NCBI RefSeq assembly: GCF_000015045.1 | Contig: NC_008609.1 | Location: 1,603,001 to 1,667,000, forward strand | Direction of reading: 5' to 3' | DNA from: Pelobacter propionicus DSM 2379 | GTDB lineage: Bacteria; Desulfobacterota; Desulfuromonadia; Geobacterales; Pseudopelobacteraceae | DNA: 64,000 nucleotides | Shown: piece by piece, positions 12,211 through 30,300 of the stretch | Layout: each line of letters begins with the position of its first letter | How positions within the stretch are numbered: the stretch's first letter is position 1 | Program-made: the position numbers and the translations under genes | Notes under the pieces: generated by a model | The model's input: only the letters and a program-made list of their open reading frames with translations | Told to the model about the DNA's origin: nothing | The model's database searches: none

Positions 12211-13410
12211 CTAGCTGACCGCTTGGCCGCTCCCTTCCGCGCCGTGACGCTTGGCGTAATGGCCGGCGACGAGCATGGTAAGCAGGGAGGCGAGGGTCAG
12301 CAGTGCGAGGGAGGCAAAGAGCGGGCCGAAGCCGGAACAGGAGATGATCTGCCCCCCCAGGAACGGGCCGAGGAAGAAGCCTCCCTGCATCATAACGATC
12401 AGCAGGTTCTGGTTCAGGCCGCGCGCACGGGGAGCCGAGATGTCGAACATCACTGCCGCCTGCAGCGGCATGGATATGCCCCAGCCCAGTCCGCAGAGTC
12501 CGGCAAGGGTGAAGAACATCCGGCCGGACGGGGAGAGGGGCAGCAGGGCATAGCAGACAGCCACGGCCAGGAGTCCCGCGCCGCAGAAGAGAAGCTTGCT
12601 GTACCTGTCGAACAGCCATCCTCCCGCCACCCTGACCAGAATCATCGCCAGGGTGGCGATGGAGAAGAAGAGGCTGGGTTTGGCGATGCCCAGGCTGCTG
12701 CCGAACTGCTTCAGGTAGAAGAAGATGGCGGAGTAACCGCAGAAGAAGAGCAGCGCCGACACAAGCAGCAGGGATATTGCGGGTGAACTCAGGCTGTCGC
12801 GCATGCCGGACAGCCCCGGGGACGGCGCCCCCCCCGCCGTTGTTTCCTGCCCGGAACGGGGGAGTAGCAACCCAAGGAGCGGGATCAGCGCCGCTCCTCC
12901 TGCCAGGTTCAGCACGGTCCCGAAGGAGGAGGGGGGAAGGCGCGTGAAATCCAACAGCGGCGGTATGATGGCGTAGGGGACCAGCCGAATCAGGGAGACC
13001 CAGCCAAAGGCGCGGCCGCTCATCTCCGGGGGGATCAGTTGGACGACCATGGTAATCAGCGCGGTCAGGACGCAGATAAAGCCTGCCCCCTGCAGCAGGC
13101 GTGCGGTCACCAGGAGCGGCACCGAGTCGGACTGGCCGATCATGAACAGTGCCGTTGCCAGGACCAGCGAGCCACCGCACAGCCAGCGCCGCGCCGAACC
13201 GGGGTGTACCAGGGGCGCGATCAGCGGCTGGATGATCAGGGCCGCCAGGGCGTCGGCGCTGATGATGAAACCGGCGGTTGCCGGACTGATCCCCAGGTGC
13301 GCCAGATAGCCTGAGAAGGCGAAGAACAGCGCGGCAATGCCGGTCACCAGCGCGAACTGGAAATTGATCACCAGAAAGGCGGGCGTGAACAGGCCGGCTG
13401 GTTTAGGCAT
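12211..13410 (-). CDS. Major facilitator superfamily transporter
   Basis: A 399-residue inner-membrane protein with about 12 hydrophobic helices, two six-helix halves, and the MFS loop motif GGWLFDRYSK between helices in the second half. It is the last gene of the minus-strand biosynthetic operon, and its start (GGAGGG upstream) overlaps the end of the FAD-subunit gene by eight bases. The position argues that it exports the product of the preceding enzymes or imports their precursor. Drug/H+ antiporters of this shape usually export. No substrate can be read from sequence. Confidence 0.85.
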   Translation of the reverse strand: MPKPAGLFTPAFLVINFQFALVTGIAALFFAFSGYLAHLGISPATAGFIISADALAALIIQPLIAPLVHPGSARRWLCGGSLVLATALFMIGQSDSVPLLVTARLLQGAGFICVLTALITMVVQLIPPEMSGRAFGWVSLIRLVPYAIIPPLLDFTRLPPSSFGTVLNLAGGAALIPLLGLLLPRSGQETTAGGAPSPGLSGMRDSLSSPAISLLLVSALLFFCGYSAIFFYLKQFGSSLGIAKPSLFFSIATLAMILVRVAGGWLFDRYSKLLFCGAGLLAVAVCYALLPLSPSGRMFFTLAGLCGLGWGISMPLQAAVMFDISAPRARGLNQNLLIVMMQGGFFLGPFLGGQIISCSGFGPLFASLALLTLASLLTMLVAGHYAKRHGAEGSGQAVS

Positions 13411-14251
13411 GGATTCCCTCCAGGAAACGGACCAGCAGGTTGGCGGCCACGGAACGGCGGTAGTCGGCGCTGCCGCGGATATCGTCCATGGGCGACACGC
13501 CTTCGCGCACCAGTGCCGCCGCTGACCGGATTGTGTCCCGGTCCAGGGGCGCGCCGGCCAGTTTCTCCTCCAGCCCGGGGAGCCTGACAACGGTGGGCGC
13601 CACGCTCCCCCAGGCAAAACGGGCCTCTTGCACGCAGCCGTCGGGGGAAAGCCTGAACATCCCGGCAAAACTGACCACGGCCACGGCCAAAGCACTGCGC
13701 AGACCGACCTTCTGGAAGGTCTGGTGGGGGAAGTCCTCCTCCCGGGGCAGCAGGATGCGGGTGATGACCTCGCCATGGCGCACCTGCGTCCTGCCCGGTC
13801 CGGCGACAAAGTCTCCCACGGACAGCCGGCGTGTCCCGTGCCGGGAGGCCAGCTCCAGTTCAGCGCCCAGCAGCTGCAGTGCCGGCAGGGAGTCCCCGGC
13901 CGGGGATGCGGTGCTGATGTTGCCCCCCAGGGTGGCCATGTTCCTGATCGCCGGGCCGCCGATGGTGCGGGCGGCCCGGACCAGCAGCTCTGCATGACCC
14001 AGGGCCAGCGGGTGGCTGATCAGGCGGGCCAGCGGCGTGGCGGCGCCGATGGAGATTTCCGTTCCCCTGTCATTGATGCCCTGGAGCTCCGGCAGGCCGG
14101 CAAGTAGCAGGAGGGGGCGCTGGTTCGGGACCGGCTCTTGGCGCAGCCTGACCAAAAGATCGGTGCCGCCGGCCATGACCATGGCCTGGGGAAAATGCTC
14201 CAGATGGGAGAAGAGCTCCTCCAGGGACGAGGGGGAAAGTACGATCCTCAT
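13403..14251 (-). CDS. Molybdenum hydroxylase FAD-binding subunit
   Basis: A 282-residue FAD subunit of the xanthine dehydrogenase/CO dehydrogenase (CoxM/XdhB) type. The FAD-pyrophosphate motif is MVMAGGTDLLVRL (residues 24-36). The second signature is GGPAIRNMATLGGNISTASP (about 97-116), where AxxRNxATLGGN contacts FAD. It transfers electrons from the [2Fe-2S] subunit to an acceptor. Its partners are the [2Fe-2S] gene immediately upstream (ATGA overlap) and the Mo subunit at 18845-21142, which is separated from them by six genes of lipid-like chemistry. Confidence 0.9.
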   Translation of the reverse strand: MRIVLSPSSLEELFSHLEHFPQAMVMAGGTDLLVRLRQEPVPNQRPLLLLAGLPELQGINDRGTEISIGAATPLARLISHPLALGHAELLVRAARTIGGPAIRNMATLGGNISTASPAGDSLPALQLLGAELELASRHGTRRLSVGDFVAGPGRTQVRHGEVITRILLPREEDFPHQTFQKVGLRSALAVAVVSFAGMFRLSPDGCVQEARFAWGSVAPTVVRLPGLEEKLAGAPLDRDTIRSAAALVREGVSPMDDIRGSADYRRSVAANLLVRFLEGIHA

Positions 14252-14739
14252 TCTTGTTCCCCTCCGCCGATGTCCGTGGCGGCCCGCTCCACCGCATCCA
14301 CGATTTTGACATACCCGGTGCAGCGGCAGAGGTTTCCGGAAAGCCCCTCCCTGATCCGCTCCCGCGTCGGCTGTGGCTCCTCACGCAGCAGGGCCAGGGC
14401 GGCCAGCTCCATGCCCGGGGTACAGAAGCCGCACTGCACCGCCCCCTCCTCCACGAAGGCCCGCTGAATAGCTCTCCCCACGGGGAGCAGCTCCAGCCCC
14501 TCCACGGTGGTGACCCGAGCCCCCTCCAGTTGGGCCACCAGCATCAGGCAGGAGAGGCGGCTTTCGTTATCCACCAGGATGGTGCAGGCGCCGCACTCGC
14601 CCGTGCCGCACCCCTCTTTGGTCCCGGTCAGCCCCAGGTCTTCGCGCAGCAGATCCACCACCCGCCGGTCTGCGGGGGCGTCGATCGCCATTGCCCGGCC
14701 GTTGAGGATGAACCGTATTGTTTCCCGTGCCTCATTCAT
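14248..14739 (-). CDS. Molybdenum hydroxylase [2Fe-2S] subunit
   Basis: A 163-residue protein with both [2Fe-2S] clusters of the xanthine oxidase family. The plant-ferredoxin-type site is CGTGECGACTI plus a later Cys in LSCLML. The second cluster is CGFCTPGM with CRCTGY. It relays electrons from the Mo centre to the FAD subunit. It overlaps both neighbours by ATGA: the acyltransferase upstream and the FAD subunit downstream. The stop-start coupling inside a fatty-acid-like operon suggests the hydroxylase acts on a pathway intermediate. Confidence 0.93.
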   Translation of the reverse strand: MNEARETIRFILNGRAMAIDAPADRRVVDLLREDLGLTGTKEGCGTGECGACTILVDNESRLSCLMLVAQLEGARVTTVEGLELLPVGRAIQRAFVEEGAVQCGFCTPGMELAALALLREEPQPTRERIREGLSGNLCRCTGYVKIVDAVERAATDIGGGEQE

Positions 14740-15695
14740 GCTTGATGCTCCTCAAGCCATGTCTCGAATCGGGACAGGCATGGAAATTCATCGACGGAAC
14801 AGACCCTGATGTGGGGGTACTCGCGCATCAGGAGCCGGGCCAGGTCCGTCCCGGGTCCCAGCTCAATCACGGTGTCGATGGCGGCCCGTGCCATGGCCGC
14901 CATGCAGAGGTCCCAGCGGACGGTGCTCGCGAGCTGGGCCGACAGTGCCTCCGCCACTCCCTCACGGCTCGTGATCCGCTGTCCGGACAGGCTGGACAGC
15001 AGCGGCACGGCGGGAGCCGCGCATTCTCCTTCCAGGATGAACCTGCGCAACGGTTCCACCGCCCCGGCCAGATGGCGGCTGTGGGAGGGAACAGCGACGG
15101 GAAGACGAACCAGGGACGGATTTGTCGGGGAAAAATGATCCAGCAGCCGGTGGACCGCGTCGTCGCGGCCGGACAGCACCACCTCGCCGCTGCCGCGGAC
15201 GATTGCCGTGTCGATCCCCAGTGCTGCCATCATTGCATCGCGCCGCATCCGTCGTTCGGGGACGTCGTCATAACGCCATAGCATCATCGCCCCGCGGCCC
15301 GGCCGCAGCTGTGCCGTTGCCAGATCCATCAGGCGCGCCCGTTCCCGGATGATCCGGAGGGTTTCCCGCCGGTTCAGGGCGCCGGCGACGTAACAGGCCG
15401 CGACCTCGCCAAGGGAGTAGCCGGCCACCAGGGCCGGCTTCGGAAGCAGGTCGCGGATGGCGTCCCAGGTTGCCAGCTGATAGAGGGCGATGGTAAACTG
15501 GGCCCGGCTGTTGGCATAGATCTCGTCTTCTCCGAGGGAGCGCCACCAGGAGCACACATCCTGTCCCAGGAGATCGGAAGCCAGCTGCGACAGTTCGTTA
15601 TGTCGCGGGTTGCCGAGAAGTTCATCCAGCATGCCGCTTCTCTGCCCGGCTTGGCCGGAACAGAGGAGGGCGATCTTCCCCGTGGTGCTCGTCAT
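14736..15695 (-). CDS. Acyltransferase, FabD/MdcH-like
   Basis: A 319-residue malonyl-CoA:ACP transacylase-fold protein. The nucleophile is Ser94 in AGYSLGEVAA, and the catalytic His is H205 in AVPSHSRHLAG, both as in FabD. The usual FxGQGxQ near the N-terminus is changed to CSGQAGQ, and the oxyanion neighbourhood differs from housekeeping FabD, so the acyl group may not be malonyl. It lies next to a dedicated ACP (15702-15947) and KAS III, and presumably loads the extender onto that ACP. Confidence 0.85.
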   Translation of the reverse strand: MTSTTGKIALLCSGQAGQRSGMLDELLGNPRHNELSQLASDLLGQDVCSWWRSLGEDEIYANSRAQFTIALYQLATWDAIRDLLPKPALVAGYSLGEVAACYVAGALNRRETLRIIRERARLMDLATAQLRPGRGAMMLWRYDDVPERRMRRDAMMAALGIDTAIVRGSGEVVLSGRDDAVHRLLDHFSPTNPSLVRLPVAVPSHSRHLAGAVEPLRRFILEGECAAPAVPLLSSLSGQRITSREGVAEALSAQLASTVRWDLCMAAMARAAIDTVIELGPGTDLARLLMREYPHIRVCSVDEFPCLSRFETWLEEHQA

Positions 15696-15701
15696 GCCGG
15701 T

Positions 15702-15947
15702 TTAGGCGGCGGCCAGGCGTTTGTCGATGAAGTCGATCATCTGCCCCAGGGTTGCCACCGAGTGGGCCTCTTCAGGAGAGAATTCCACGCCGAAGCTGTC
15801 CTCCGTCAGCACCAGCAGCTCGGCCAACGCCAGGGAGTCAAGGCGCAGATCGTTTCGCAGGTCAGCCTCGGGTTTCAGGTCCTCCGGGGCCAGCTTGCCC
15901 TTCCTCGTCTTCAGAATCAGTTCACAGATTTTCTCGCGTGTTGTCAT
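15702..15947 (-). CDS. Acyl carrier protein 1
   Basis: An 81-residue carrier protein with the phosphopantetheine-attachment serine S38 in RLDSLALAELL (usual DSL motif) and four-helix acidic character. Its start overlaps the KAS III stop (ATGA) and has AAAGGAG upstream. It is the likely carrier for the KAS III product and the acyltransferase. A second, different ACP gene lies 9 kb upstream in the same operon. Confidence 0.92.
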   Translation of the reverse strand: MTTREKICELILKTRKGKLAPEDLKPEADLRNDLRLDSLALAELLVLTEDSFGVEFSPEEAHSVATLGQMIDFIDKRLAAA

Positions 15948-16975
15948 GGTTCATCTCCTTTGGTGTGAATTTGGTCACTCCCGGGGGAGTGCCAGCGAAG
16001 CAATGCCGACCCCCAGCTGACTCCCGCCCCGAATCCGGTCAGCATCAGGTGGTCGCCATGCACTATCCGCCCCGTGCGGATGGTCTCGTCCAGGGCAATG
16101 GGGATCGAGGCGGAAGAGGTGTTTCCGATCCGCTCCAGGTTGACGACAAACCGCTCCAGCGGCAGGTCAAGCCGGCCGGCCGCGGCCTCGATGATGCGGC
16201 GGTTTGCCTGGTGGGGCACGAACAGGGCGATATCCGTTGGCGTCAATCCCCGCTTGTTCATGGCGCGCATGGCCGAATTGCCCAGGATGCGCATGGCGAA
16301 GACGAAAACCTGGTTCCCGTCCATGCGCACGTACTGCAACTGGTCGGCAAGGACTTCCGCCGAGAGCGGCAACCGGCTGCCGCCGGCCGGGACCATGATG
16401 GCCTCATGTTCGCTGCCGATGGTGCCCGCATCGGTCGCCAGCAAGCCGAATCCGTCGGGAACCGGCCCGATCACCGCCGCGCCGGCGCCGTCGCCGAACA
16501 GGATGACGCTGTCGCAGTCGTCCGGGTTGACGATGCGGGACAGCACCTCCGCGCCGATCAGCAGCACCTTGCGGCTGAATCCGCAGGTGACGGCATGACA
16601 GCCGACCACGAGCCCATACACGAAACCGGAGCAGGCGGCAGAAAGGTCGAAACAGATCGCGCCCGGAATCCCCAGGGCGCCCTGGACGAGCGCCGCCGTG
16701 GCCGGGGAGGGGTAATCGCCGGATATGGTGGAGACGATGACCATGCCGATCTCCTCCGGAAGGGTATCGGCGGCGGCCAGGGCCCGACGGGCGGCAACGA
16801 TGGCCAGGTCGGAGCAGGCCTGATGCGGTGCGGCGATGTGGCGTTGGCGGATGCCGGTGCGCTCGAAGATCCACTCCGTGGTGATGCCGAAGCGGCTGGC
16901 GAGCTCTTCGTTGGTCAGCAGCTGTTCCGGCAGGCAGACACCGGTTCCCAGGATTCCAGCCCCCGTGGTCATCAT
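15944..16975 (-). CDS. 3-oxoacyl-ACP synthase III (KAS III) family
   Basis: A 343-residue FabH-type condensing enzyme. The catalytic triad is present: Cys115 in SAACSGFVYG, His in VPHQANRRI, and Asn in ERIGNTSSAS. KAS III enzymes condense an acyl-CoA starter with malonyl-ACP. With an ACP, an acyltransferase and a ketoreductase in the same operon, it should start a short acyl chain. The start codons at 16975 and 16972 are adjacent (ATGATG), preceded by GGGAGG. It overlaps the upstream GNAT-like gene. It is not the housekeeping fabH context (no plsX or fabD-fabG-acpP cluster). Confidence 0.9.
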   Translation of the reverse strand: MMTTGAGILGTGVCLPEQLLTNEELASRFGITTEWIFERTGIRQRHIAAPHQACSDLAIVAARRALAAADTLPEEIGMVIVSTISGDYPSPATAALVQGALGIPGAICFDLSAACSGFVYGLVVGCHAVTCGFSRKVLLIGAEVLSRIVNPDDCDSVILFGDGAGAAVIGPVPDGFGLLATDAGTIGSEHEAIMVPAGGSRLPLSAEVLADQLQYVRMDGNQVFVFAMRILGNSAMRAMNKRGLTPTDIALFVPHQANRRIIEAAAGRLDLPLERFVVNLERIGNTSSASIPIALDETIRTGRIVHGDHLMLTGFGAGVSWGSALLRWHSPGSDQIHTKGDEP

Positions 16976-17982
16976 ACCCCTCCCGGTGCCGGGACTGATT
17001 CCCGGTCGTTGCGGATGAATTCCAAAAGCGCCCGTGCCCCGGCGCTGTACAGCCTGATCCCCTCGTAATCCGGCTCCCTGCCGAGGATCCGCTGCATCAT
17101 GATACCGTCGGCGCCGAACCAGCGCGGAAACAGGCCGCCCAGAAAGAAGCCCCGTTGGCGCAAATCTTCCACGGCCCGGCCGATGGAGGGCAGGGCGGCG
17201 GAGATCACCACCTGGAGGCTGACCACTCCCCGCTGCGCGGCACGAAGCAGCAACTCGTCCAGGAACCCGGTCCAGTCGCCGCCGATGGAGCTGACGGCAA
17301 CCCTCCACATGCCGGCGCCGGTGAACCAGGTGTCGTGACAAACGGTGGTCCCCGTTTCGGGCAGCGTCGCGCGGCCGTGGCGCGGGTTCCTGGGGCGCAG
17401 GCGGCCGAGGATGGCCTGGAGCGGCTCCTCGTACCGGTCCGGCAGATAACACTCCTCCTCCGGGTCGGACTGCTCGAAAAACTGCAGCAGGCAGGCCACC
17501 CGCTCCGACTCCGGCGCGTGCTCGCGGAACGCGGCCCCGTCCATCTGCTCCAGAGCCAGGGCGCAGTCCGCGAAGCCCGATTTGGCGCAGGCCAACTGGG
17601 TGAAAAAGTGGTGGCAGACCGACTCTCCGAAGATGCCGTCACTGCCGGAAGGGGGCAGGTGCTCCGGGCGCAGGAACTGTTGCAGCAGCGACCAGGCCAG
17701 ATCGCCGTCGCCCCGGCCGGGGACCACCAGCAGGTTGCCCCCTTCCCACAGGCGCGGGTTAGGCGCGCTCGTATAGATGGCAACGTAGCCGGCCGGGAGC
17801 CCCTGGCCGTCGAAGGCCAGAAACGAGCTCAGTCTGCCGGCGGCGATTTCAGCCATGACCCCCGCTCCCTGATAGACGTATTTCACCGGATAGGTGTCGC
17901 CGTAAATCGAACGGAATACCTCCGCGACCGCATCGGCGCGGGATGCGTCAACCGGTAGTAAGGTATAGGGCGCAGGGCACAT
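16972..17982 (-). CDS. GNAT-like acyltransferase paralogue A
   Basis: A 336-residue protein related to the gene at 23617-24666. Shared blocks are YGDTYPVKYVY, NPRLWEGGNLL, DGIFGESVCHHFFTQ and a C-terminal GGLFPRWFGADGIMM. These blocks resemble the GNAT-type half of RsbW-GNAT fusion proteins found in many bacteria, where a phrase like YGxxYPVxxVY opens the domain. A typical GNAT acetyl-CoA loop (QxxGxG/A) is not clear. Its role could be acyl transfer from ACP or CoA onto an amine, or regulation. AAGGAG precedes the ATG at 17982. Function is inferred. Confidence 0.6.
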   Translation of the reverse strand: MCPAPYTLLPVDASRADAVAEVFRSIYGDTYPVKYVYQGAGVMAEIAAGRLSSFLAFDGQGLPAGYVAIYTSAPNPRLWEGGNLLVVPGRGDGDLAWSLLQQFLRPEHLPPSGSDGIFGESVCHHFFTQLACAKSGFADCALALEQMDGAAFREHAPESERVACLLQFFEQSDPEEECYLPDRYEEPLQAILGRLRPRNPRHGRATLPETGTTVCHDTWFTGAGMWRVAVSSIGGDWTGFLDELLLRAAQRGVVSLQVVISAALPSIGRAVEDLRQRGFFLGGLFPRWFGADGIMMQRILGREPDYEGIRLYSAGARALLEFIRNDRESVPAPGGV

Positions 17983-18087: not shown

Positions 18088-18828
18088 TCAGACGATGCCG
18101 CCATCCACGACCAGGGACTGGCCGGTGATGTAGGAAGCCCGCGCCGAGGCCAGGAACAGGACCGCCTCGGCCACTTCCTGGGGAGTGCCGCTGCGCCCCA
18201 GGGAGGTGGTGCGGACGATGCGTTGCAGCGCCTCCCCCTCCAGGTGCGCGGTCATGTCGGTACGTATCAGGCCGGCCACCACCGCGTTCACCCGGATCCC
18301 TAGCGGCCCCAGCTCGCGGGCCAGGGATTTGGTGAAGCTGATGGCGGCGCCCTTGGAGGCGGAGTAGGTGGTCTGGCCGGCCGTTCCCATGAGGGCGGAT
18401 ACGGATGAGACCGTTACGATGGCGCCCCGCTGTTGCCCCAGCATCTTTCTGGCGCCCCATTTGCCGCAGTGAAAGAGGGAGTTCAGGTTTGTCCGCATGA
18501 CCTCCTCCCAATCCTGTTCGGCCATGGTGACCAGCAGCCCGTCTCTCAGGATGCCGGCGTTGTTGACCAGCACGTCGATGTGCCCCGTCTCTTTCGCGGC
18601 CGCATCCATGATGGCGCGGGCTCCTTCGGCCGTGCCCACGTCGGCCTTGATGGCGACCAGGGAGCCTGCCAGGCTCTCGGCCTCCTCCCAGGTAGCCCGT
18701 GCGGCCGCATCGTTGTTCAGGTACGCCGCAAACACCCGTGCGCCGTTGCGGGCAAAGGCCAGCGCAATGGCCCGTCCGATCCCGCGGGTGCCGCCGGTGA
18801 CGACAACGGTCTGGTCCTTGAATTCCAT
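18088..18828 (-). CDS. SDR ketoreductase, FabG-like
   Basis: A 246-residue short-chain dehydrogenase with the cofactor motif GGTRGIGRA (12-20), NNAG (89-92) and the catalytic Ser142, Tyr155 and Lys159 (TYSASKGA). It closely fits 3-oxoacyl-ACP reductase. In this operon it would reduce the 3-keto product of KAS III. I chose the ATG at 18828 with AGGGAG upstream; an ATG at 18852 overlapping the previous stop would add eight residues. Confidence 0.9.
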   Translation of the reverse strand: MEFKDQTVVVTGGTRGIGRAIALAFARNGARVFAAYLNNDAAARATWEEAESLAGSLVAIKADVGTAEGARAIMDAAAKETGHIDVLVNNAGILRDGLLVTMAEQDWEEVMRTNLNSLFHCGKWGARKMLGQQRGAIVTVSSVSALMGTAGQTTYSASKGAAISFTKSLARELGPLGIRVNAVVAGLIRTDMTAHLEGEALQRIVRTTSLGRSGTPQEVAEAVLFLASARASYITGQSLVVDGGIV

Positions 18829-18844
18829 GGCAAACTCCCTGCTG

Positions 18845-22266: not shown

Positions 22267-23588
22267 GGCTGCCCGTTCCCGCCGGAATGGTCGTACACCA
22301 CCAGGTCGCCCTGGCCCGCGTCCGGCACCAGCAGGCGCGGCACAAAGCCGGTCTGCTCCAGGGCATCGGCGAAGGCGGTGTCCTCGCTGCGTCCGCTGTT
22401 TATTTCGACGATGAAGTTGCCGATCCCCTCCTCACCCAGGAGCTGCAGATGGGCGGACAGGTTGTCGGCCATGTCCCGGCCGGCGCAGAGGGGGCGAATG
22501 ATAGCCAGGGAGCGGGGGCAGTCCAGTTCCACCGCCAGCACCGAGGCGTCGCGCAAACGGTTGAGGCTGCCGCCCGTTTCCCGTATCTGACGGGGGAGGC
22601 AGAGCCGGTCGTACTGCTCGGCCAGGAAGGCGCCCAGGGTCCCGCCGCAGTAGACCACCCCGCCGCTCTCCTCCCTCAGCTGGCGGTAGTAGTAGGTGCA
22701 GTGGCTGGCGTCTCCGCTGGAGCCGGCCATCTCCAGGTCCCCCAGGAAATCGAAGAAACGCTCGTGGTCCGGCAGCGGCCCCTGGCGCCGCAGCAACCCC
22801 CGCGAGCGGGAGTGGGAGATGCGTCCGAAGGCCTCGTCCATCAGCATGGTCAGGGTGCGGTCTTCCGGGTCGCAGGTGAACAGGTAGGGACCGAACAGTT
22901 CTGTGCAGGTTTCCGTCAGCGGCCGCCAGAGTACGCCGCCGACGATCCAGTCGTTACTCATTGCCAAAAGCGCGTTTAAGTGGCCGGCCGCCAGCATGTC
23001 GGCCGCCATGCCCGGGCGGGCCAGGAAGAGGGGGGTGAACGGGGAGGCGGAGGCGGTCACCATGGCGGCGAAATGCCGCAGGTCGTCTGCCGTGGGGGAG
23101 CTCAGGCGGACCGTGCCGATAAGATCGGCAGGCGGGAGTTCCGCGGCGCCGACTGCCGGGTAGTCCCGGTCGCGGGTCATGCGGATCGCCACCCGTTCGT
23201 TGCCGCCAAAGTCCAGGCGCAGGCTGGATACGCTGCGGGCGGCGATCATCGGCCCCAGCATGTCCAGCGATTCCTCGCTGTCATGGCTAACCCGCCAGGT
23301 CAGGTTGAAGGCGCGCATGTCCGGGTTGGCGGTGGCGAAGGAGAGGGTGAGGCACAGGCGGTAGCCCTGGTCCTCCAGTTCGATCTCAGCCGTGGAATCC
23401 GCGGCTGCCCGGCGGCTGTAGAAGGAGAACAGTTCCTCCACCGCCAGCACCAGCCCGGTGGCTTCCCGGTCGCCATAACCGAAGCCATGCGCCCCGCGCT
23501 CGGCGAATTCCATGGCCAGGGGGAGGAAGGGGGCGCTGAAGGGGATGCGGATTGTGGCGCTCTTCTGCCTGCTTGTCTGCTGTTGCAT
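22263..23588 (-). CDS. Degenerate RsbW-like ATPase fused to GNAT-like domain
   Basis: A 441-residue protein. The N-terminal part (about 10-130) resembles the GHKL anti-sigma kinase fold: IRIPFSAPFLPLAMEFA, then VLAVEELFSFYSRR where RsbW proteins have the N-box EExxxN. Here the Asn that binds Mg-ATP is Phe56, and no clear GxGxG lid is seen, so ATP hydrolysis is doubtful. Residues about 140-441 are a GNAT-like region related in layout to the proteins at 16972-17982 and 23617-24666. RsbW-GNAT fusions are a known but uncharacterised group. It is encoded between a GNAT-like gene and the aminotransferase. I chose the ATG at 23588 (GAGAGG upstream). Confidence 0.6.
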   Translation of the reverse strand: MQQQTSRQKSATIRIPFSAPFLPLAMEFAERGAHGFGYGDREATGLVLAVEELFSFYSRRAAADSTAEIELEDQGYRLCLTLSFATANPDMRAFNLTWRVSHDSEESLDMLGPMIAARSVSSLRLDFGGNERVAIRMTRDRDYPAVGAAELPPADLIGTVRLSSPTADDLRHFAAMVTASASPFTPLFLARPGMAADMLAAGHLNALLAMSNDWIVGGVLWRPLTETCTELFGPYLFTCDPEDRTLTMLMDEAFGRISHSRSRGLLRRQGPLPDHERFFDFLGDLEMAGSSGDASHCTYYYRQLREESGGVVYCGGTLGAFLAEQYDRLCLPRQIRETGGSLNRLRDASVLAVELDCPRSLAIIRPLCAGRDMADNLSAHLQLLGEEGIGNFIVEINSGRSEDTAFADALEQTGFVPRLLVPDAGQGDLVVYDHSGGNGQP

Positions 23589-23616: not shown

Positions 23617-24666
23617 TCATAGTTCCTTCCGCCCATGGTCCCGCCTGACCAGCTCCAGCAGGCTGCGGCCACGGCTGGAGTGGACCTTCATGCCGTCGAA
23701 GTCCGGATCCACGAAGTGCTTCTGCAGCAGCAGGCCGTCACTGCCGAACCAGGCGGGGAGCAGGCCGCCGAAGCGATAGCCCTGGCTCCGCAGCAGCTCC
23801 ACGATCCCCCCGGACCAGGGGTGTCCCAGGTCAATGAAGAACTGGATCAGGGCGTAGTCATCGTTTCTCAGTTCCCGTTCCAGCTCGTGCAGTCGAATAG
23901 CGAGCCCTTCACCCGGCGTCGTGACCGTGCAGCGGGCCACGCCGGCAAAGTCGAAGCGTTGCGCGTCGATCTCCCCCTGGCCGGCTGGCAGGGCGTTGTC
24001 GGGGACGATCAGCTCGCGCTCCAGGTTCAGGCCGTCCAGCAGAAGTGTCAGCTCCTCCCGGTAGGGGTGGGGGATGTGCAGTTTCCTGGGGCAATCCCGG
24101 TCCACCCGGAAATAGACCATGCATCCCACGCGGCCCTGGGCACTCTGCTCTGCCTGGTAGGCCCGGGCTGGCATGAGGGCCGGCTCCAGGGCGGTTTCCA
24201 GCATCCGCGATTGCAGGGAAAGCTTCTGGGTGATGATGTGGTTGCATACCGCCTCGCCGAAGATTCCGTCGATGCCGTCGTGTCCCACCAGTTCCATGAG
24301 CTGCTGGTTTGCGCGGAAGAAGGCCATGGTGGAGCGGTACCCCGGAAGGGTCAGTCCCAGTCCGAATTCGTAGAGATTTGGGTTGGGGGGAGAACTGCGG
24401 TAGAGGGCCACATGGGAGACCACGTCGCCGGAGGCGGTACGGCTTACCACGCTGCGGATGGTCCCGCGACGGTTCTCCTCCACCAGCCGCTCCGGGATGT
24501 AGTAGGTGTCGATGGGGTAGCCGTCGCCGTACACGGCGTAGAACAGCCGTGTCACCCCATAGGCGTCGGAGGGCTGGAAACGGTCGGCAATGAACTCCTG
24601 GTCGTCGGGGATGGGGCGTTGGTCGGCGGCCAGCATGGCCAGCGCCTCGCTGCGCTGCATGCTCAT
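23617..24666 (-). CDS. GNAT-like acyltransferase paralogue C
   Basis: A 349-residue relative of the protein at 16972-17982: YGDGYPIDTYYIPE, NPNLYEFGLGLTLPGYRS, DGIFGEAVCNHIITQK and C-terminal GGLLPAWFGSDGLLL. The segment after the second block, with a basic patch near PGYRS, sits where GNAT folds bind CoA phosphates. It overlaps the ACP 2 gene by ATGA, so it may take an acyl group from that carrier. Three related proteins in one operon suggest successive or alternative acyl transfers, or a sensory role. No characterised homologue is known to me. Confidence 0.6.
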   Translation of the reverse strand: MSMQRSEALAMLAADQRPIPDDQEFIADRFQPSDAYGVTRLFYAVYGDGYPIDTYYIPERLVEENRRGTIRSVVSRTASGDVVSHVALYRSSPPNPNLYEFGLGLTLPGYRSTMAFFRANQQLMELVGHDGIDGIFGEAVCNHIITQKLSLQSRMLETALEPALMPARAYQAEQSAQGRVGCMVYFRVDRDCPRKLHIPHPYREELTLLLDGLNLERELIVPDNALPAGQGEIDAQRFDFAGVARCTVTTPGEGLAIRLHELERELRNDDYALIQFFIDLGHPWSGGIVELLRSQGYRFGGLLPAWFGSDGLLLQKHFVDPDFDGMKVHSSRGRSLLELVRRDHGRKEL

Positions 24667-24896
24667 CGACCGGCGCCGATGCGGTCGGCGAAGTTCTCCA
24701 GCGTCTTCAGCCGCAGTGCATCCGCGTCGCTGATGTTGATGCCGTAGCGTCGCTCCACCGCCATGACGAAAGCCGGGCCGTCCAGGGAATCAACCCCCTG
24801 CTGGGCCAGTAGCCGGGAAGGGTCCAGCTGTTCCACGACGGCCGGCTCCACACCCACCTCCAGCATCAGCTGTTTCAGTTCCTCGATCAGTTCCAT
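24663..24896 (-). CDS. Acyl carrier protein 2
   Basis: A 77-residue carrier protein with Ser37 in QQGVDSLDGPAFV as the phosphopantetheine site, within an otherwise normal ACP/PCP helix pattern. AAGGAG lies eight bases before the ATG at 24896. It is encoded directly after the adenylate-forming ligase (two-base gap), so the ligase probably charges it, as stand-alone A-domain/carrier pairs do. Confidence 0.9.
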   Translation of the reverse strand: MELIEELKQLMLEVGVEPAVVEQLDPSRLLAQQGVDSLDGPAFVMAVERRYGINISDADALRLKTLENFADRIGAGR

Positions 24897-24898: not shown

Positions 24899-26410
24899 CT
24901 ATGCTCCTTTCGGTTGAGCCGGTTCTCGCAGCCGAAAACGCTGGATCTTGCCGGTGGGTGTACGGGGAAGCTGTTCCACGAAGGTGAAGCTGACCGGACA
25001 CATGTACTCCGGCAGCCGCTCCAGCAGATGGGCGCGCAGGCGGCGCGCCAGTGCCGGGTTCCCCTGGACCTCGGGGGATGGTATCACGAAGGCCCCCGGC
25101 CTGACCAGGCCGCCCACGGATAGGGCTACCACGGCGCATTCGGCCACGCTGGGGTGACTCAGGAGCGCCTCCTCCACCGGCAGCGGCGAGACCAACTGGG
25201 CGCCGGCCTTGATCATATCGTCGTTGCGTCCCTGGTGGTAGTAGAAACCGTCCCGTTCCAGGAACAGGTCGCCACTGCGCAGGAAACCGTCGGGGAGCAT
25301 GGTCTCGCCGCTTTTGTCCGGCAGGTTCCAGTAGCAGGGGCAGCTGGTCGGCCCCTTGACCAGCAGGGTGCCCACTGTTCCGGAGGGCACCGCCCTGCCG
25401 TCCTCGTCCACCAGCCTGATCCGGTAGCCGGGCACCGCCTGGCCGGCGGAACCGGGCCTGGCCCGGCCGGGGCGGTTGGAAATGTAGATGTAGGACATTT
25501 CGGTGGAGCCGATGCCGTCCAGCAGCTCAAGCCCGGTCAGGCGGTGCCACTCGTGGAAGATGGCTGCCGGCAGGGCCTCGCCGGCGGAGTAGCAGAGTCG
25601 CAGGGAGAGTTCCAGGCGGTCGGAGCCGCAGGAGAGGATCAGCTGGGAGTAGACCGTGGGCACGGAGAAGAAGACGCTCGGCCGGTGGCGCTCCATTAGC
25701 TCCAGAATGGCGGCCGCGTCCGGCTTGTCCGGAATGAGGATCGCCGTTGCCCCGAAGAAGAGCGGGAAGGCCAGGCTGTTGATCAGGCCGTAGGCAAAGG
25801 AGAACTTGCTTGCCGAGAAGATGCGGTCCTGTTCGCTGAGCCCCAGGATCTCCCTGCCCACCAGGTCGCAGGGGATCAGCAGATCCCGGTGGCGGTGGGG
25901 GATCCCCTTGGGTACTCCGGTGGAGCCGGAGCTGTACTGCATGTAGGCGATCCGGTCGGCCGGAGGAACGTCCGCCGCGAACTCCCCGTCGTGCCCCTCG
26001 GGTGGTTCGAATCTGTCCCTATCGTCGCAGACGAGCAGGCCGACCCGGCTCTGTTCCGGCGGGAGCGGGGAGGGGAGCCGGGGATCGGTCACCAGCAGGC
26101 GACTGCCACTGTCGTTCAAGATGTGCTCGAACTGTTCCCGGGTAAGGGCGGTGCCTGCGACCACCGCCGTCACCCCGGCCAGCAGGCAGCCGAGGAAGGC
26201 CACCGGGAAAGCCAGGCTGTCGGGGAGCAGGATCAGCACCCGTTCTCCCGGTGAAATACCCCGCTCCCGCAGCAGCAGGGCGAAAAGGCGGCTGTACCGC
26301 TCCAACTCCCGGTAGGAGAGGGAACGCTCACCGCAGAGAAAGGCGGCCTTGTCCGGGTGGCGTTCCCGGTTGCGCTCCAGCAGCATGGCAGCGGCATTGT
26401 CGGTGTACAT
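24899..26410 (-). CDS. Adenylate-forming acyl-CoA/ACP ligase
   Basis: A 503-residue member of the ANL superfamily, closest in style to benzoate-CoA ligases. It has the P-loop YSSGSTGVPKG (159-169), DGIGSTEMSYIYI, SGDLF and the C-terminal catalytic Lys488 in RTPTGKIQRF. It activates a carboxylic acid as acyl-AMP and transfers it to CoA or to the phosphopantetheine of ACP 2, encoded next. The substrate is unknown; an aromatic acid is possible given the family resemblance. It is the first biosynthetic gene after the regulatory genes of the operon. Confidence 0.88.
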   Translation of the reverse strand: MYTDNAAAMLLERNRERHPDKAAFLCGERSLSYRELERYSRLFALLLRERGISPGERVLILLPDSLAFPVAFLGCLLAGVTAVVAGTALTREQFEHILNDSGSRLLVTDPRLPSPLPPEQSRVGLLVCDDRDRFEPPEGHDGEFAADVPPADRIAYMQYSSGSTGVPKGIPHRHRDLLIPCDLVGREILGLSEQDRIFSASKFSFAYGLINSLAFPLFFGATAILIPDKPDAAAILELMERHRPSVFFSVPTVYSQLILSCGSDRLELSLRLCYSAGEALPAAIFHEWHRLTGLELLDGIGSTEMSYIYISNRPGRARPGSAGQAVPGYRIRLVDEDGRAVPSGTVGTLLVKGPTSCPCYWNLPDKSGETMLPDGFLRSGDLFLERDGFYYHQGRNDDMIKAGAQLVSPLPVEEALLSHPSVAECAVVALSVGGLVRPGAFVIPSPEVQGNPALARRLRAHLLERLPEYMCPVSFTFVEQLPRTPTGKIQRFRLREPAQPKGA

Positions 26411-26507: not shown

Positions 26508-26933
26508 TCAGCTCCCGTAATCCGGGGAGCGTCTGAATTCCATGCGCAGGATGTTGCGACCGTTTTCCCGGCGATAGCTGACGCTGTCCGACAGCGTGCG
26601 GATGAAGTGAATCCCCAGGCCGCCGATCTCCCGCTCCATGACATCAAGCGTCAGGTCAGGATCGGGGAGCGACAGGACATCGAAGGGCTGCCCCTGGTCG
26701 ACGATTTCCAGCACGAATGCGTCGCCATCGTTCCTGCAGCTGATTTCCGCGTTCCCCTCTCCCTGGGGATAGGCATGGTTGCAGATGTTGACGAAGGCTT
26801 CTTCGAGGACCAGCTGCAGTCCGAACCGCTTCTTTGCGTCCAGCCCGAAGCGGTCGGCGCACTGTTCCACGAATGCGTTAGTCGCGTCGAGGTTCCCGAC
26901 CCTTGCTGCAATGTGCTTCGTGGCCACTATCAT
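26508..26933 (-). CDS. RsbW-like serine kinase / anti-sigma factor
   Basis: A 141-residue GHKL ATPase. The N-box EEAFVNICNHAY (Asn49) and G-boxes DQGQPFD (79-85) and GGLGIHFI (104-111) are intact. Such proteins bind a sigma factor or other target and phosphorylate a STAS antagonist. The STAS gene is directly upstream (six-base gap) and a PP2C phosphatase comes before it, giving a full partner-switching module. No sigma factor gene lies in the window, so the regulated target is unknown; the enzymes of this operon are candidates. Confidence 0.9.
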   Translation of the reverse strand: MIVATKHIAARVGNLDATNAFVEQCADRFGLDAKKRFGLQLVLEEAFVNICNHAYPQGEGNAEISCRNDGDAFVLEIVDQGQPFDVLSLPDPDLTLDVMEREIGGLGIHFIRTLSDSVSYRRENGRNILRMEFRRSPDYGS

Positions 26934-26939
26934 GGCACT

Positions 26940-27275
26940 TCAGGAGAGGGCGGCAAGGGAGGCGGCCAGCGATGAATCCATCTGGAAGATGGAGTTGAAA
27001 CCGGAGATGTCGAATACCTCTTTGACGGTGCCGGTGACGTTGGCAAAGCGCAGCTGCCCTTTTTTTGCCTTGAGCAGTTTTGCCGTTACCAGCAGCCCCC
27101 GCAACCCGGCGCTGCTGATGTAATCGAGCTGTTCAAAGTCAACCACGAAATGGAGATTTCCGCCGTCGATCAGCTCACGTATTTTTTTCTCATACTCCGG
27201 GGCGGTAACGGCATCAAGCCTGCCGGTTATGGTTATGATGGTCGCGTTCTGGTCCGTTGTTGCCTTGAACTCCAT
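26940..27275 (-). CDS. STAS-domain anti-sigma factor antagonist
   Basis: A 111-residue STAS protein like SpoIIAA/RsbV. The phosphorylatable serine lies in LDYISSAGLRGL (Ser54/Ser55). It should cycle between the phosphorylated form (made by the RsbW-like kinase downstream) and the active form (restored by the PP2C phosphatase upstream). Length and motif are normal. 90 bases separate it from the phosphatase gene. Confidence 0.93.
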   Translation of the reverse strand: MEFKATTDQNATIITITGRLDAVTAPEYEKKIRELIDGGNLHFVVDFEQLDYISSAGLRGLLVTAKLLKAKKGQLRFANVTGTVKEVFDISGFNSIFQMDSSLAASLAALS

Positions 27276-27365: not shown

Positions 27366-29303
27366 TCACGCCGACCCTCGCGTCACACCGCTTCCCCGGT
27401 AGGTAATCGCAACCATGGTGATGTCGTCCGATTGCGGCGCGCCATTGGCATGACGCGTGACTTCGGCACGGATGAAATGGATTGTTTCCGTAAGATCATC
27501 CCTGGGGCCACGCCGCAGGGCATCAAGCAGCTGCGGCTCGCCGTACAGTTCTTCCTTCCGGTTTTTCGCCTCGGTCACGCCGTCGGTATAGAGAAACAGC
27601 GTGTCTCCCGGCTGCATGGTGAGTCGTTGGGTTGTGTAGACAATATCTGGCATGGGGCCCAGAACGAAACCCGATTCCAGGGTGAGGTAGCCTATCCCCG
27701 TGGAGTCGATTGTCAGCGGCGGGTTGTGTCCGGCATTGGCGAAGCGCACCTCACCGCAGGTGGTATCCAGGATGGCGCAGAACACCGTGGCGAACATGCA
27801 GCTGTCATTGTCCGCCGCCAGGATGTTGTTGACGGATGAAAGAATTTTGTCCGGCTCGCCCAGGCGCTGCGCCTCAGACTTCAGCAGGGTCTTGGCCACC
27901 ATCATGTACAGTGCAGCCGGTACACCCTTGTCCGAAACATCGGCAATCAGGAAGCAGAGATTGGTGTCGTCGATGAAGAAGAAGTCGTAGAAGTCACCGC
28001 CGACTTCCTTTGCCGGATCCATGGATGCGAAGATATCGAACTCGGGGCGTTCCGGAAAAGCGGGAAAAATGCGGGGCAACAGGCTGGCCTGGATGTCGGT
28101 GGCCACCTTGAGCTCGCTCTGGATGCGTTCCTTGGCCGCGGTGGTCTCGGTCAGATTCCTGATGTAGTCCTTGAGCGACTCCTTCATGGCCTGAAAGTCA
28201 TGGGCCAGCAACCCGACCTCGTCGTTGGAGCGCACCAGGGGGAGTTCCAGGTCGAAGTTCCCCGCCGCCAGTTGATGGGTCGCCGCGGCCAGGGAACGGA
28301 GCGGCGTCGTGATGGAGCGGGCGATGAAGACCACCGCCAGGGTCAAAAGCAGGATGCCGGCCAAACCCATGATTGCGCCGGTCAGGCTCAGGCTTCTCAC
28401 CTGGGCCAGCAGCTCCGCCTCGGGAAAGACCACCGCCAGGGTCCAGCCCACGGAGGGGATCGGGGCGTAGTAGAGCCAGCAGCGCCTGCCGTACAGGTCT
28501 GTGTAGGGGATGAAGTCGGAGCCCCCGCTGATCATCTTCCTCCCCAGGGCCCGCAGTCCCGGGTCGTTGCGTGCCTCGGCCAGGGAGAAGACGGTCTCGT
28601 TCATGATCATCTCCCGGGAAGGGTGGGTGACGATGGTGCCGTTGCGGGAGAGGAGAAAGGCGTAGCCGCTCTTGAGCACCTTGATGGATGCCACCGTGGC
28701 GGTCAGCCACTCCAGGGAAATGTCGGAAACCACCACCCCCTTGACACGCCTGGCGCCGCCACTGGTCTCGTGGAAGGGGACGGAACAGCTTGCCATGAGG
28801 ATGTTTGATCCGTTGTCGCCGTAATAGGGCTCGGTCCATTCCGTTCTGCCCAACTCCCGGCTGATCTGGTACCAGTCCTGGCGCAGGTACTGGAAGGAGT
28901 CCTCGTTGTTGTAGGCGATCTTCCCCCGGCTCCGGAAGAAGTAGGGGGCGTAGGGGCGGGCGTTGCTTTCGCGGGTGTCGGGCTCGAAGGCAGCGCAGGA
29001 ACCGTAGATCTCGGGGTTGTCCGCCAGTGTGTCCTTAAGCAGGGCGAGAAGCTCCCGGTGACTGTAACGGCCGTTCTCCAGGGAACGGGCCAGCCCCTCG
29101 GTTACCCTGGTGACCGAGGCGAGTACGGCCTCCACCCTGTTAACCGACGACAGCGCCAGGTTGCGGGCGTTGTTCTCCAGCTCTCTCTGCAGGACACTCT
29201 TGGAGCGGTAGTAGCTGTAGCCCAGAATAACGGTGAAGATGAGGGAAGTGCAGAGCGTGATGACCAGGATCAGTTTGAAGGCAATGCTTCTATCGCCGAA
29301 CAT
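27366..29303 (-). CDS. Membrane sensor PP2C (SpoIIE/RsbU-type) phosphatase
   Basis: This 645-residue protein starts with a membrane helix (about 8-28), then an extracytoplasmic dCache-like sensor (about 30-300), a second helix (about 305-325), a HAMP linker and a C-terminal PP2C domain (about 400-640). The phosphatase motifs include AKEVGGDFYDFF (metal-binding Asp), LIADVSDKGVPAAL and LFLYTDGVTEAKN. It should dephosphorylate the STAS protein in response to a periplasmic ligand. The start at 29303 has AGGAGG upstream and overlaps the end of the binding-protein gene, so that protein may deliver the signal. Confidence 0.9.
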   Translation of the reverse strand: MFGDRSIAFKLILVITLCTSLIFTVILGYSYYRSKSVLQRELENNARNLALSSVNRVEAVLASVTRVTEGLARSLENGRYSHRELLALLKDTLADNPEIYGSCAAFEPDTRESNARPYAPYFFRSRGKIAYNNEDSFQYLRQDWYQISRELGRTEWTEPYYGDNGSNILMASCSVPFHETSGGARRVKGVVVSDISLEWLTATVASIKVLKSGYAFLLSRNGTIVTHPSREMIMNETVFSLAEARNDPGLRALGRKMISGGSDFIPYTDLYGRRCWLYYAPIPSVGWTLAVVFPEAELLAQVRSLSLTGAIMGLAGILLLTLAVVFIARSITTPLRSLAAATHQLAAGNFDLELPLVRSNDEVGLLAHDFQAMKESLKDYIRNLTETTAAKERIQSELKVATDIQASLLPRIFPAFPERPEFDIFASMDPAKEVGGDFYDFFFIDDTNLCFLIADVSDKGVPAALYMMVAKTLLKSEAQRLGEPDKILSSVNNILAADNDSCMFATVFCAILDTTCGEVRFANAGHNPPLTIDSTGIGYLTLESGFVLGPMPDIVYTTQRLTMQPGDTLFLYTDGVTEAKNRKEELYGEPQLLDALRRGPRDDLTETIHFIRAEVTRHANGAPQSDDITMVAITYRGSGVTRGSA

Positions 29304-30300
29304 CGGGCCTCCTGGTAAAGGCATCGTAGTCGGGGATGGCGCGGATCATCCTCTCCTTTTGCAAAATCCGGCCGGTAGCCTGGTAGTCCTCCCGGTTCAG
29401 TGCGCCGGTCAGCGCCTGGCCGTCCCGGGGGGCGATCAGGTCGCGCATCCGCTCCAGCATCCATTTCTGGTGCGTGCGGTTGGCGGGAATCCTGGCCAGT
29501 CGCATCTGTTTGATGACGATGTCCAGCGCCTCGTCGGGATGGCTGAAGGCATACTCCCATCCCTCCAGCGTGGCCCGCACGAAGCTGTCCACCAGGGCGG
29601 GATCTCTCCGCACGGTTTTCTCCAGGGCGTAGAGGCCGTCTTCGGGAAGGTTCAGCCCCAGGTCTTTGAAAAAGAACAGGCTCAACTCATCGGGGTCGAT
29701 GCCGGCATTGATGATGGTGTGGTACTCGTTGTACCACATGGCCGAGGCCACATCGATGCCGCCGCGCAGGAAAAGGTTGATGGTGTAGGATTGGGGAACG
29801 GTGCGCACGCTCAATCGCTGCCTGGTGAAGAATACCGTGGGGGGGATGGCAAAGGGGTCCCCCCAGAGGCCGATCTTTTTGCCGTTCATGTCGGCAGGAG
29901 TCCTGATGCCGCTGGATTTTCGGGCCACCAGCATCAGGGAGGAGTTCTGGACCACCTGGGCGATGTTGACAAGCCGCACTCCTGCGCTGCGCTGCTGCAT
30001 GGCCGTGGTCAGCCAGAGCATGGTGAAATCGGCCGTGCCGTTGGCCAGGTATGCGCTGGGGGAGCGGTTCGGTCCTCCGGTGATAATGGTCAGGTCGATG
30101 CCGTGTTTGCGGTAGATTCCCCGCTCCAGGGCGGTGTAATACCCGGCGAACTGGGCCTGGGGGCTCCAGAGCGGCAGCAGGCTGGCCTTTTTCAGTGTCT
30201 CCGCCACGGCCGCGTGGGCTTGCGTGAGCATGACGACGGTCACCAGCAGGGGCAAAAGGACGGTTATTAGCCTCGGAGGTCCGGCTCCCGGTGTCCTCAT
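29290..30300 (-). CDS. NMT1/THI5-like periplasmic binding protein
   Basis: A 336-residue protein with a signal peptide (about 1-34, cleaving near HAAVAE) and the SsuA/THI5/NMT1 fold: WSPQAQFAGYYTALERGIY, ANGTADFTMLW, NGKKIGLWGDPF. These proteins bind thiamine precursors, sulfonates or similar small molecules. No ABC permease or ATPase accompanies it; it is instead co-transcribed with the sensor phosphatase, overlapping it by 14 bases. A sensing rather than a transport role is therefore likely. The ATG at 30300 has AAAGG upstream. Confidence 0.85.
   Translation of the reverse strand: MRTPGAGPPRLITVLLPLLVTVVMLTQAHAAVAETLKKASLLPLWSPQAQFAGYYTALERGIYRKHGIDLTIITGGPNRSPSAYLANGTADFTMLWLTTAMQQRSAGVRLVNIAQVVQNSSLMLVARKSSGIRTPADMNGKKIGLWGDPFAIPPTVFFTRQRLSVRTVPQSYTINLFLRGGIDVASAMWYNEYHTIINAGIDPDELSLFFFKDLGLNLPEDGLYALEKTVRRDPALVDSFVRATLEGWEYAFSHPDEALDIVIKQMRLARIPANRTHQKWMLERMRDLIAPRDGQALTGALNREDYQATGRILQKERMIRAIPDYDAFTRRPDVRR

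Follow-up and report, generated by a model that had tools for sequence, protein, structure and literature searches.

An operon of 18 genes lies in a 64,000-nucleotide stretch of the Pelobacter propionicus DSM 2379 genome (contig NC_008609.1, positions 1,603,001 to 1,667,000), which we refer to as the window. Its open reading frames (ORFs), all on the minus strand and all open, run from 30363 to 12211 in window coordinates and encode, in 5' to 3' order, SBP, PP2C, STAS, HATP, LIG, ACP1, GNAT1, HGNAT, HISC, MOL, KR, GNAT2, KAS3, ACP2, AT, FES, FAD and MFS (Table 1); these names serve as labels for the operon proteins. We hold with near certainty that a recurring core of this operon, the HGNAT-HISC pair, usually with a molybdenum (Mo) hydroxylase, an MFS transporter and a GNAT protein, is a conserved unit. 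The 17 gene junctions comprise seven overlaps of four bases (ATGA), two of eight and one of 35 (between SBP and PP2C), along with seven gaps of 2 to 105 bp, the last being the largest in the operon. The original prediction of 18 nearly contiguous minus-strand genes with many ATGA overlaps is thus borne out, and its span of 12211-30300 is correct at the 3' edge and requires correction to 30363 at the 5' edge. GC content at the third codon position is 0.71-0.89 across genes and 0.65-0.80 in three that were measured as overlong ORFs.

Profile scans with Pfam and NCBIfam (Pfam alone for MFS) confirmed the gene families anticipated for this locus, among them the binding protein, PP2C phosphatase, STAS and RsbW-like proteins, ligase, carrier proteins, KAS III and acyltransferase. 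The expected catalytic motifs were found in KAS3, AT, KR, both carrier proteins (Ser), PP2C, HISC and LIG, and the metal-binding Asp motifs of the phosphatase were located in PP2C. Matches of LIG in the PDB are benzoate- and anthranilate-coenzyme A (CoA) ligases; those of SBP are 4nmy and the formyl-aminopyrimidine-binding protein 3ix1. The translation of SBP has a hydrophobic N-terminal segment, and no ABC permease is encoded among the 18 genes. GNAT1, GNAT2 and HGNAT have no Pfam match at E 0.1 and no NCBIfam match at E 0.001. In the AlphaFold2 (AF2) model of GNAT1 (confidence score, pLDDT, 92.7), the N-terminal part folds as a GNAT domain (Z 12.6, 156 residues, root-mean-square deviation (r.m.s.d.) 2.7). 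The HGNAT model (pLDDT 90.1) combines an RsbW-like domain, which matches chain D of the anti-sigma/antagonist complex 8ih8 (Z 16.1, 121 residues, r.m.s.d. 1.9), with a predicted GNAT domain (Z 14.9, 145 residues, r.m.s.d. 2.5), and a profile comparison relates its C-terminal part to the GNAT1 family (E 2.3e-6, probability 89%). Of the three proteins expected to be GNAT-like or ATPase-GNAT, GNAT1 and HGNAT are supported by their predicted folds, and GNAT2 is assigned by its homology to GNAT1.

Table 1. Genes of the operon, in order of transcription (window coordinates)
Gene	Description	Coordinates	Strand	Basis
SBP	NMT1/THI5-type binding protein, 357 aa, presumably periplasmic	29290..30363	-	Pfam NMT1 1.6e-39
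PP2C	dCache-HAMP-SpoIIE membrane phosphatase, RsbU-like	27366..29324	-	Pfam SpoIIE 1.1e-50, dCache_1, HAMP
STAS	RsbV-like, Ser kept (YISSAGLR)	26940..27275	-	Pfam STAS 6.8e-20
HATP	RsbW-like kinase, intact N-box EEAFVN	26508..26933	-	Pfam HATPase_c_2 5.5e-30
LIG	Aryl-acid (benzoate-type) ligase	24899..26410	-	NCBIfam TIGR02262 430.7 bits, cut-off 375.25
ACP1	Carrier protein, DSL site	24663..24896	-	Pfam PP-binding 3.6e-8
GNAT1	GNAT-fold acyltransferase (predicted), ACP-linked clade; second GNAT-like half behind	23617..24666	-	AF2 model
HGNAT	Degenerate RsbW-like domain fused to GNAT1-type region; core gene	22263..23588	-	AF2 model
HISC	HisC-like pyridoxal phosphate (PLP) aminotransferase; core gene	21139..22266	-	NCBIfam hisC 284.6 bits, cut-off 276.55
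MOL	Mo hydroxylase large subunit; core gene	18845..21142	-	Pfam MoCoBD_1/2
KR	FabG-like ketoreductase; accessory	18088..18852	-	Pfam adh_short_C2
GNAT2	Second GNAT1-type protein, beside KAS3/ACP2; accessory	16972..17982	-	Homology to GNAT1, 31-32%
KAS3	KAS III, Cys-His-Asn motifs; accessory	15944..16975	-	NCBIfam PRK09352 374.8 bits, cut-off 249
ACP2	Carrier protein, DSL site; accessory	15702..15947	-	Pfam PP-binding 5.3e-10
AT	FabD/MdcH-like malonyl-type transferase, GYSLGE motif; accessory	14736..15695	-	Pfam Acyl_transf_1 1.5e-20
FES	[2Fe-2S] subunit of Mo hydroxylase; core gene	14248..14739	-	Pfam Fer2_2 2.7e-29
FAD	Flavin subunit of Mo hydroxylase; core gene	13403..14251	-	Pfam FAD_binding_5 2.8e-43
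MFS	Transporter, presumed exporter; core gene; start 13410	12211..13410	-	Pfam MFS_1 2.5e-35

The HGNAT-HISC core and its companions

Relatives of GNAT1 occur in 17 of the 141 genomes of the order. We compared ten regions from eight of these same-order genomes, excluding the window's own, and found the best match on contig C9 of genome G019, where LIG, ACP1, GNAT1, HGNAT, HISC, MOL, GNAT2, KAS3, ACP2, FES, FAD and MFS follow one another in window order at 51-80% identity. The core is partial or rearranged in the other same-order regions, one of which (contig C160 of G019) holds a lone GNAT. KAS3 is present at 68-73% identity in five of the eight genomes and GNAT2 in G019, G125, G130, G131 and G133; KR and AT are listed in none of the eight for the regions compared.

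A scan of named genomes with GNAT1 yielded 79 loci (L047-L125), 42 of which contain HGNAT and are called core loci here. In 40 of these, HISC is on the strand of HGNAT and at most 300 bp from it; in the remaining two (L101, L116) it is also the next gene after HGNAT on the map. Gene counts for core loci are lower bounds, owing to short contigs and 10-kb flanks. At the 24 core loci that extend at least 9 kb beyond HGNAT, MOL, FES, FAD and MFS are each present in 20, PP2C, STAS and HATP each in 11, SBP in nine, LIG and ACP1 each in one, and KAS3 (at least 60% identity), KR (at least 45%) and AT (at least 40%) in none. Across all 42, LIG and ACP1 each occur in 11, a window-type KAS III (at least 60%) in one, a number that is an undercount because the stretches are short (compare five of eight same-order genomes), and KR and AT, at the same thresholds, in none.

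Of 395 genomes sampled from the phylum, 51 matched a profile of HGNAT (44 of the 328 of good quality), 47 of the 51 with E below 1e-90 and four weakly or partially (E 1e-11 to 1e-21). From these matches, 30 short and 20 wide stretches representing 40 genomes, including the window's own, were examined, a check that is partly dependent on the first since the profile was built from GNAT1-seeded loci and ten of the 40 genomes, plus the window, overlap. HISC directly follows HGNAT in 29 of the 30 short and 19 of the 20 wide stretches, both misses falling in one genome, so that the pair is intact in 39 of 40 genomes and in 28 of the 29 that are new relative to the named set. The wide stretches contain MOL, FES and FAD in 14 cases, MFS in 12, GNAT1 in 11, HATP in four, PP2C and STAS in three, SBP in two, and LIG and ACP1 in one. 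Cultured isolates that carry the pair with Mo-hydroxylase and MFS genes include Desulfobulbus elongatus, Trichlorobacter thiogenes, Desulfocarbo indianensis and Desulfovibrio sp. DV; in Pseudodesulfovibrio pelocollis the pair is accompanied only by a GNAT. ORF calling misread some genes, and one ORF cluster (c16) reads as the antisense of HISC.

The HGNAT-HISC pair is the firmest part of the module, and the arrangement of the operon is not due to chance, as these genes are found together again in many genomes. That the gene set forms a unit, for which conservation in several genera was the proposed support, stands for most genes. The idea of an acyl or polyketide operon at its heart is not supported, given how seldom LIG, ACP1 and KAS III, and never KR or AT, accompany the core: in homologous loci KR and AT are unlinked from it, KAS III and the ligase are partly so, and the core genes themselves stay together. 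No characterised pathway matching the locus emerged from a search of open-access full texts, subscription papers lying outside it, in agreement with the earlier failure to match the gene set to a known product.

The Mo hydroxylase belongs with the xanthine dehydrogenase family, sharing with xanthine and nicotinate dehydrogenases three subunits and the catalytic Glu, and the best PDB match of MOL is nicotinate dehydrogenase (3hrd). All 42 aligned MOL rows (40 distinct) share the invariant residues GGKD, EH and GE. We take Glu802 and Arg880 of xanthine dehydrogenase to be its purine-binding pair and Glu1261 its catalytic residue. MOL departs from that enzyme at the first two, with Asp at the Glu802 column in 42 of 42 rows and Leu at the Arg880 column in 41 (columns placed by eye), and keeps the Glu at the presumed 1261 position in all 42. 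This single conserved fingerprint suggests that the MOL family acts on one common substrate other than xanthine. A purine scaffold had seemed favoured by the xanthine-dehydrogenase-like subunits, by deaminase genes next to the module and by genes of XdhC or MocA type (families read from sequence) that neighbour it in nine of the 79 named loci; we dropped it, as MOL lacks the presumed purine-binding pair and deaminases appear in just five of 145 screened loci. These are GuaD/TadA-like genes in or beside the module at L120:8357-8890, L168 (about 17870-18300), L094 (about 7820-8360) and L034 (about 16615-17196), and an adenosine-deaminase-like gene at L167:7282-8283.

The operon is flanked by genes read as an ATP-synthase operon on one side and a ModE-like gene on the other, with a hairpin and T run (30543-30520, consensus scan) directly behind the latter, upstream of the operon. 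Mo-themed genes lie in the window at 30547-31356, 31823-32629, 43193-44981, 46081-47262 and 52493-55300; they comprise the ModE-like regulator, identified by family scan, and, mostly by reading of translations, a Mo-storage-protein-like gene, two tungstate/molybdate-type binding proteins, a MocA-like gene and a second Mo hydroxylase. In G019, the region directly upstream of the module (G019:C9:24282-35876, in L031) encodes another Mo hydroxylase together with XdhC-like and MocA-like proteins, a separate enzyme paralleling the one elsewhere in the window.

Acyl-supply genes and movement of the core

Three arrangements supply or accompany the GNAT proteins. One is the benzoate-type LIG-ACP1-GNAT1 cassette; another is KAS3-ACP2-GNAT2, joined in the window by AT and KR; the third, a GNAT without ACP1, is found in 31 of the 42 core loci. 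In Desulfobacter vibrioformis (L061), LIG-ACP1-GNAT1 is followed by genes resembling benzoyl-CoA reductase subunits C, A and D, with scores of 372 (cut-off 421), 344 (578) and 246 (313) bits, and in G125, G130 and G133 a more divergent set of this kind, scored in G125 only, lies between LIG and ACP1. All such genes that were scored fall below the curated benzoyl-CoA-reductase cut-offs, and dearomatisation in a biosynthetic setting is a possible role. These BcrC/B/A/D-type sets lie at L061:11081-15566 and L033:11752-15831 (G125). In G131, E1-alpha, E1-beta and lipoyl-type domains precede KAS3 in one fused protein (L043:12465-15857), which hints at a starter derived from a 2-oxoacid; length and the KAS3 match point to the same fusion in G133 (L045:2905-6237).

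KAS III, ACP, AT and KR, each with catalytic motifs, are shared with type II fatty acid and polyketide synthases. Unlike those systems, the operon could perform one extension at most, and KR and AT do not recur in homologous loci; no KAS II, dehydratase or enoyl-reductase gene was recognised among the 18 (KR is FabG-like). Another comparison is with FeeM and LuxI, which are acyl-ACP-dependent synthases of N-acyl amino acids and homoserine lactones. The resemblance consists of a GNAT-like fold beside an ACP and an aryl/acyl ligase, together with loss of the CoA-loop Gly in the ACP-linked clade; GNAT1 differs in having a second GNAT-like half, and a PDB search with its profile gave no chain at E 1. 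No homoserine-lactone or FeeM-type synthase is among the matches listed, by sequence or by fold.

We read the GNAT loops against the motif R/QxxGxG/A, which we take to be the CoA-loop signature. The window GNAT1 departs from it, with YRSTMA at this position. The Gly of YRxxG is absent from all 16 ACP-adjacent GNATs and from 18 of 67 others (kept in 49), a contrast that the Fisher p of 4e-8 overstates since the link reflects one evolutionary change; the count does not include the window's GNAT2. In most core loci a GNAT occurs without ACP1, and most such GNATs keep the Gly. The loss is fitting for a GNAT1 clade that, beside ACP1, would use acyl-ACP donors. GNAT1-family genes also stand in other settings: four lie in tandem in two Desulfarculus metagenome-assembled genomes (MAGs; L108:7567-11790 and L112, about 1480-5617), one lies beside pdxS/pdxT-like genes (L097) and one beside IorA/IorB-like oxidoreductase and aminotransferase genes (L113), the last two by reading of translations. 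A role in defence was considered and dropped, because a PADLOC search with GNAT1, HGNAT and GNAT2 gave no match at E 0.1.

Pairwise identities across loci are correlated between HISC and HGNAT (r 0.85, 56 rows), MFS and MOL (0.77, 38), MOL and HGNAT (0.67, 38) and GNAT1 and HISC (0.33, 55), and none of 1000 permutations reached any of ten such values, although part of this comes from ordinary common descent and from a few rows of the same genome. A Rhodoferax MAG (L102) resembles the window at 69% (HGNAT), 79% (HISC) and 73% (MOL), compared with 27% (HGNAT) and 55% (HISC) for Trichlorobacter thiogenes (L058), a member of the window's own family, so that similarity departs from taxonomic order, with the proviso that labels of MAG contigs may be wrong. 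These patterns point to horizontal spread of the core as a block. In the Rhodoferax MAG, HGNAT, HISC, MOL and MFS stand at 63-79% identity but the GNAT at only 36%, and LIG and ACP1 were not found; the acyl cassette has probably been exchanged there. This case and the sparse distribution of LIG, ACP1, KAS III, KR and AT among core loci make it quite likely that the acyl genes are a swappable donor cassette on a mobile core.

The partner switch and competing explanations

The operon shares with RsbU-RsbV-RsbW and SpoIIE-SpoIIAA-SpoIIAB the motifs of a PP2C phosphatase, a STAS Ser and a HATPase kinase. It differs from RsbU-RsbV-RsbW in being headed by a binding protein, in its linkage to biosynthetic enzymes and to a fusion of a pseudo-RsbW with a GNAT, and in having no sigma factor within it. 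SiaABCD is a partner switch whose target is not a sigma factor. SypE-SypA is described as a switch without a known sigma target (PMC12826045). The same paper describes regulation of the indigoidine pigment pathway by TciK/TciR, in which an RsbW-like domain is fused to another domain, as in HGNAT; there the partner is REC, and conservation of the kinase residues is reported, as is the lack of an RsbV homologue (PMC12826045).

In our alignments all 24 STAS rows of the module (23 distinct) retain the phosphorylatable Ser. The Asn of the N-box, in the ATP pocket, is present in 21 of 21 HATP rows (20 distinct) and in none of 60 HGNAT rows, of which 59 (57 distinct) keep both N-box Glu residues; FN[LI]T-like and GLxIA[SA]R-like motifs replace the DxGxPF-like and GGLG-like boxes of HATP. 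HGNAT thus looks like a pseudo-kinase fold, suited to binding rather than phosphorylation, and retention of the RsbW-like region in relatives despite loss of the Asn suggests such a binding role. STAS, HATP, PP2C, SBP and HGNAT occur together in ten rows (nine distinct contigs) in several arrangements, and STAS directly precedes HGNAT in L077 and L141, which share sequence, and in L148. No stand-alone HATP was detected in six loci with STAS: L050, L058, L059 and L060 contain HGNAT, L173 has its STAS near the edge of the stretch, and L078 has no HGNAT in the stretch examined. In G131 a STAS N-terminus is in frame with an ATP-grasp and methyltransferase-like protein (G131:C24:124515-126665, by translation reading). 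The idea that the switch is tied to the enzymes is supported by its presence in 11 of the 24 long core loci and undercut by the three or four of 20 wide HGNAT-seeded stretches, which make it a frequent, non-obligate companion.

An ordinary partner switch, in which HATP holds a sigma factor encoded elsewhere, SBP, PP2C and STAS free it for transcription of the operon and HGNAT is an enzyme or relic, has a modest chance of being correct. HATP, STAS and PP2C keep their catalytic motifs, and such switches exist elsewhere in the genome, which has 13 HATPase_c_2 matches including one other strong small protein (G000:C3:2897401). Against this stand the conserved RsbW-like region of HGNAT, the loci with STAS and HGNAT but no detected stand-alone HATP, and the lack of a sigma factor, by Pfam, among the 18 operon proteins and the ModE-like neighbour, to which that search was confined. 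For the last two reasons we prefer HGNAT as the STAS target with modest confidence, and offer action of STAS on HGNAT, not on a sigma factor, as a tentative proposal. It is unlikely that the sensor is a general one lying merely upstream of a separate biosynthetic island. The 97 bp gap between HATP and LIG, the absence of the switch from many core loci and a GC shift at about 26 kb would fit such neighbours, the enzymes (12-26 kb) having 65-67% GC compared with 60-62% over the switch genes and 60% at 6-12 kb; the repeated co-occurrence of the switch genes with HGNAT in several arrangements, and STAS placed directly before HGNAT, argue otherwise.

A catabolic or salvage operon, in which SBP senses an aromatic compound or N-heterocycle, LIG and the Mo hydroxylase degrade it and MFS imports it, appears improbable, and we favour biosynthesis over catabolism with good confidence. 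LIG does belong to the benzoate-CoA-ligase family, the best solved relative of MOL is nicotinate dehydrogenase, SBP is similar to a pyrimidine-binding protein, and the Bcr-type genes of L061, G125, G130 and G133 would suit degradation, as would a 3-hydroxyacyl-CoA-dehydrogenase-like gene (by reading) near HISC in G125 with homologues in G134, G137 and G138. Yet the carrier proteins, KAS III, AT and several GNATs indicate synthesis, no beta-oxidation or ring-cleavage genes are among the window's 18, and LIG and ACP1 are absent from 31 of 42 core loci.

Proposed function and significance

We propose that the module, which occurs in many anaerobic bacteria, probably builds and exports a small acyl-decorated molecule. 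The core proteins would probably add an amino group to a small scaffold, heterocyclic or otherwise, oxidise and N-acylate it, and export the product. In the window, one acyl group would be an aryl acid, loaded by LIG onto ACP1 and moved by GNAT1, and the other a once-extended 3-hydroxyacyl group, made by AT, KAS III and KR on ACP2 and moved by GNAT2. Binding of a periplasmic ligand by SBP would act on PP2C, leading to dephosphorylation of STAS, which HATP would rephosphorylate, and freed STAS would dock on the RsbW-like face of HGNAT and set enzyme activity or assembly. Gene content, conservation, mobility, cassette exchange, the predicted folds, the intact motifs of kinase, STAS and phosphatase and the degenerate HGNAT pocket rest on the analysis above, and what we infer in this scheme is its chemistry, the transfer of acyl groups, export, sensing of a ligand and docking of STAS on HGNAT. 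More speculatively, and somewhat doubtfully, the switch may gate the biosynthetic complex directly, with an extracellular ligand, perhaps the product, acting through SBP, PP2C and STAS on HGNAT to give protein-level control without a sigma factor, and with the acyl tail set by cassette swap; in that still speculative case the tail options would be an acyl-CoA GNAT, a benzoate-type ligase-ACP-GNAT, joined in Desulfobacter by a benzoyl-CoA-reductase-like set that might dearomatise the ring, or a KAS III-ACP-GNAT. As a whole, the reading of a mobile small-molecule biosynthesis module with a constant HISC-HGNAT core, variable acyl supply and STAS-HGNAT control has, in our judgement, an even chance of being right.

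Several observations weigh against that reading. Thirty-seven of the 79 GNAT1-seeded loci have no HGNAT in the stretch examined, so GNAT1 relatives also exist away from the core. HISC passes the curated HisC cut-off (Table 1); no other his gene lies in the operon, and the genome has seven other, weaker HisC matches, the best at 29%. HGNAT may not be an acyltransferase, because its GNAT region has no clear RxxGxG loop by eye. All 16 ACP-adjacent GNATs without the Gly fall in one clade of 22 rows (support 94), phylogenetically independent pairs give no support for a link between ACP linkage and Gly loss, and in GNAT2, though it is near ACP2, a Gly-containing loop sits in a different register (PGRGDGD). 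The GC step argues only weakly for transfer, as 46-50 kb of the window also reaches 66%. The switch is not obligate (PP2C in 15 of 42 and three of 20 core loci), and in G130 and G134 (L060 and L059) a separate HATPase-GNAT fusion within about 20 kb could be the kinase. These two fusions lie at G134:C143:15359-16954 (without the N-box Asn) and G130:C45:13496-14971 (Asn kept, EEAAVN).

The module is found in cultured strains and includes three proteins without a Pfam or NCBIfam match. It also lends itself to testing directly whether enzymes, and not sigma factors, can come under the control of a partner switch. If our reading is correct, annotation would tend to label it as stray fatty-acid, purine or histidine genes, and should the module make a regulated, exported acyl compound, anaerobes would have in it a signal or metabolite of wide occurrence.

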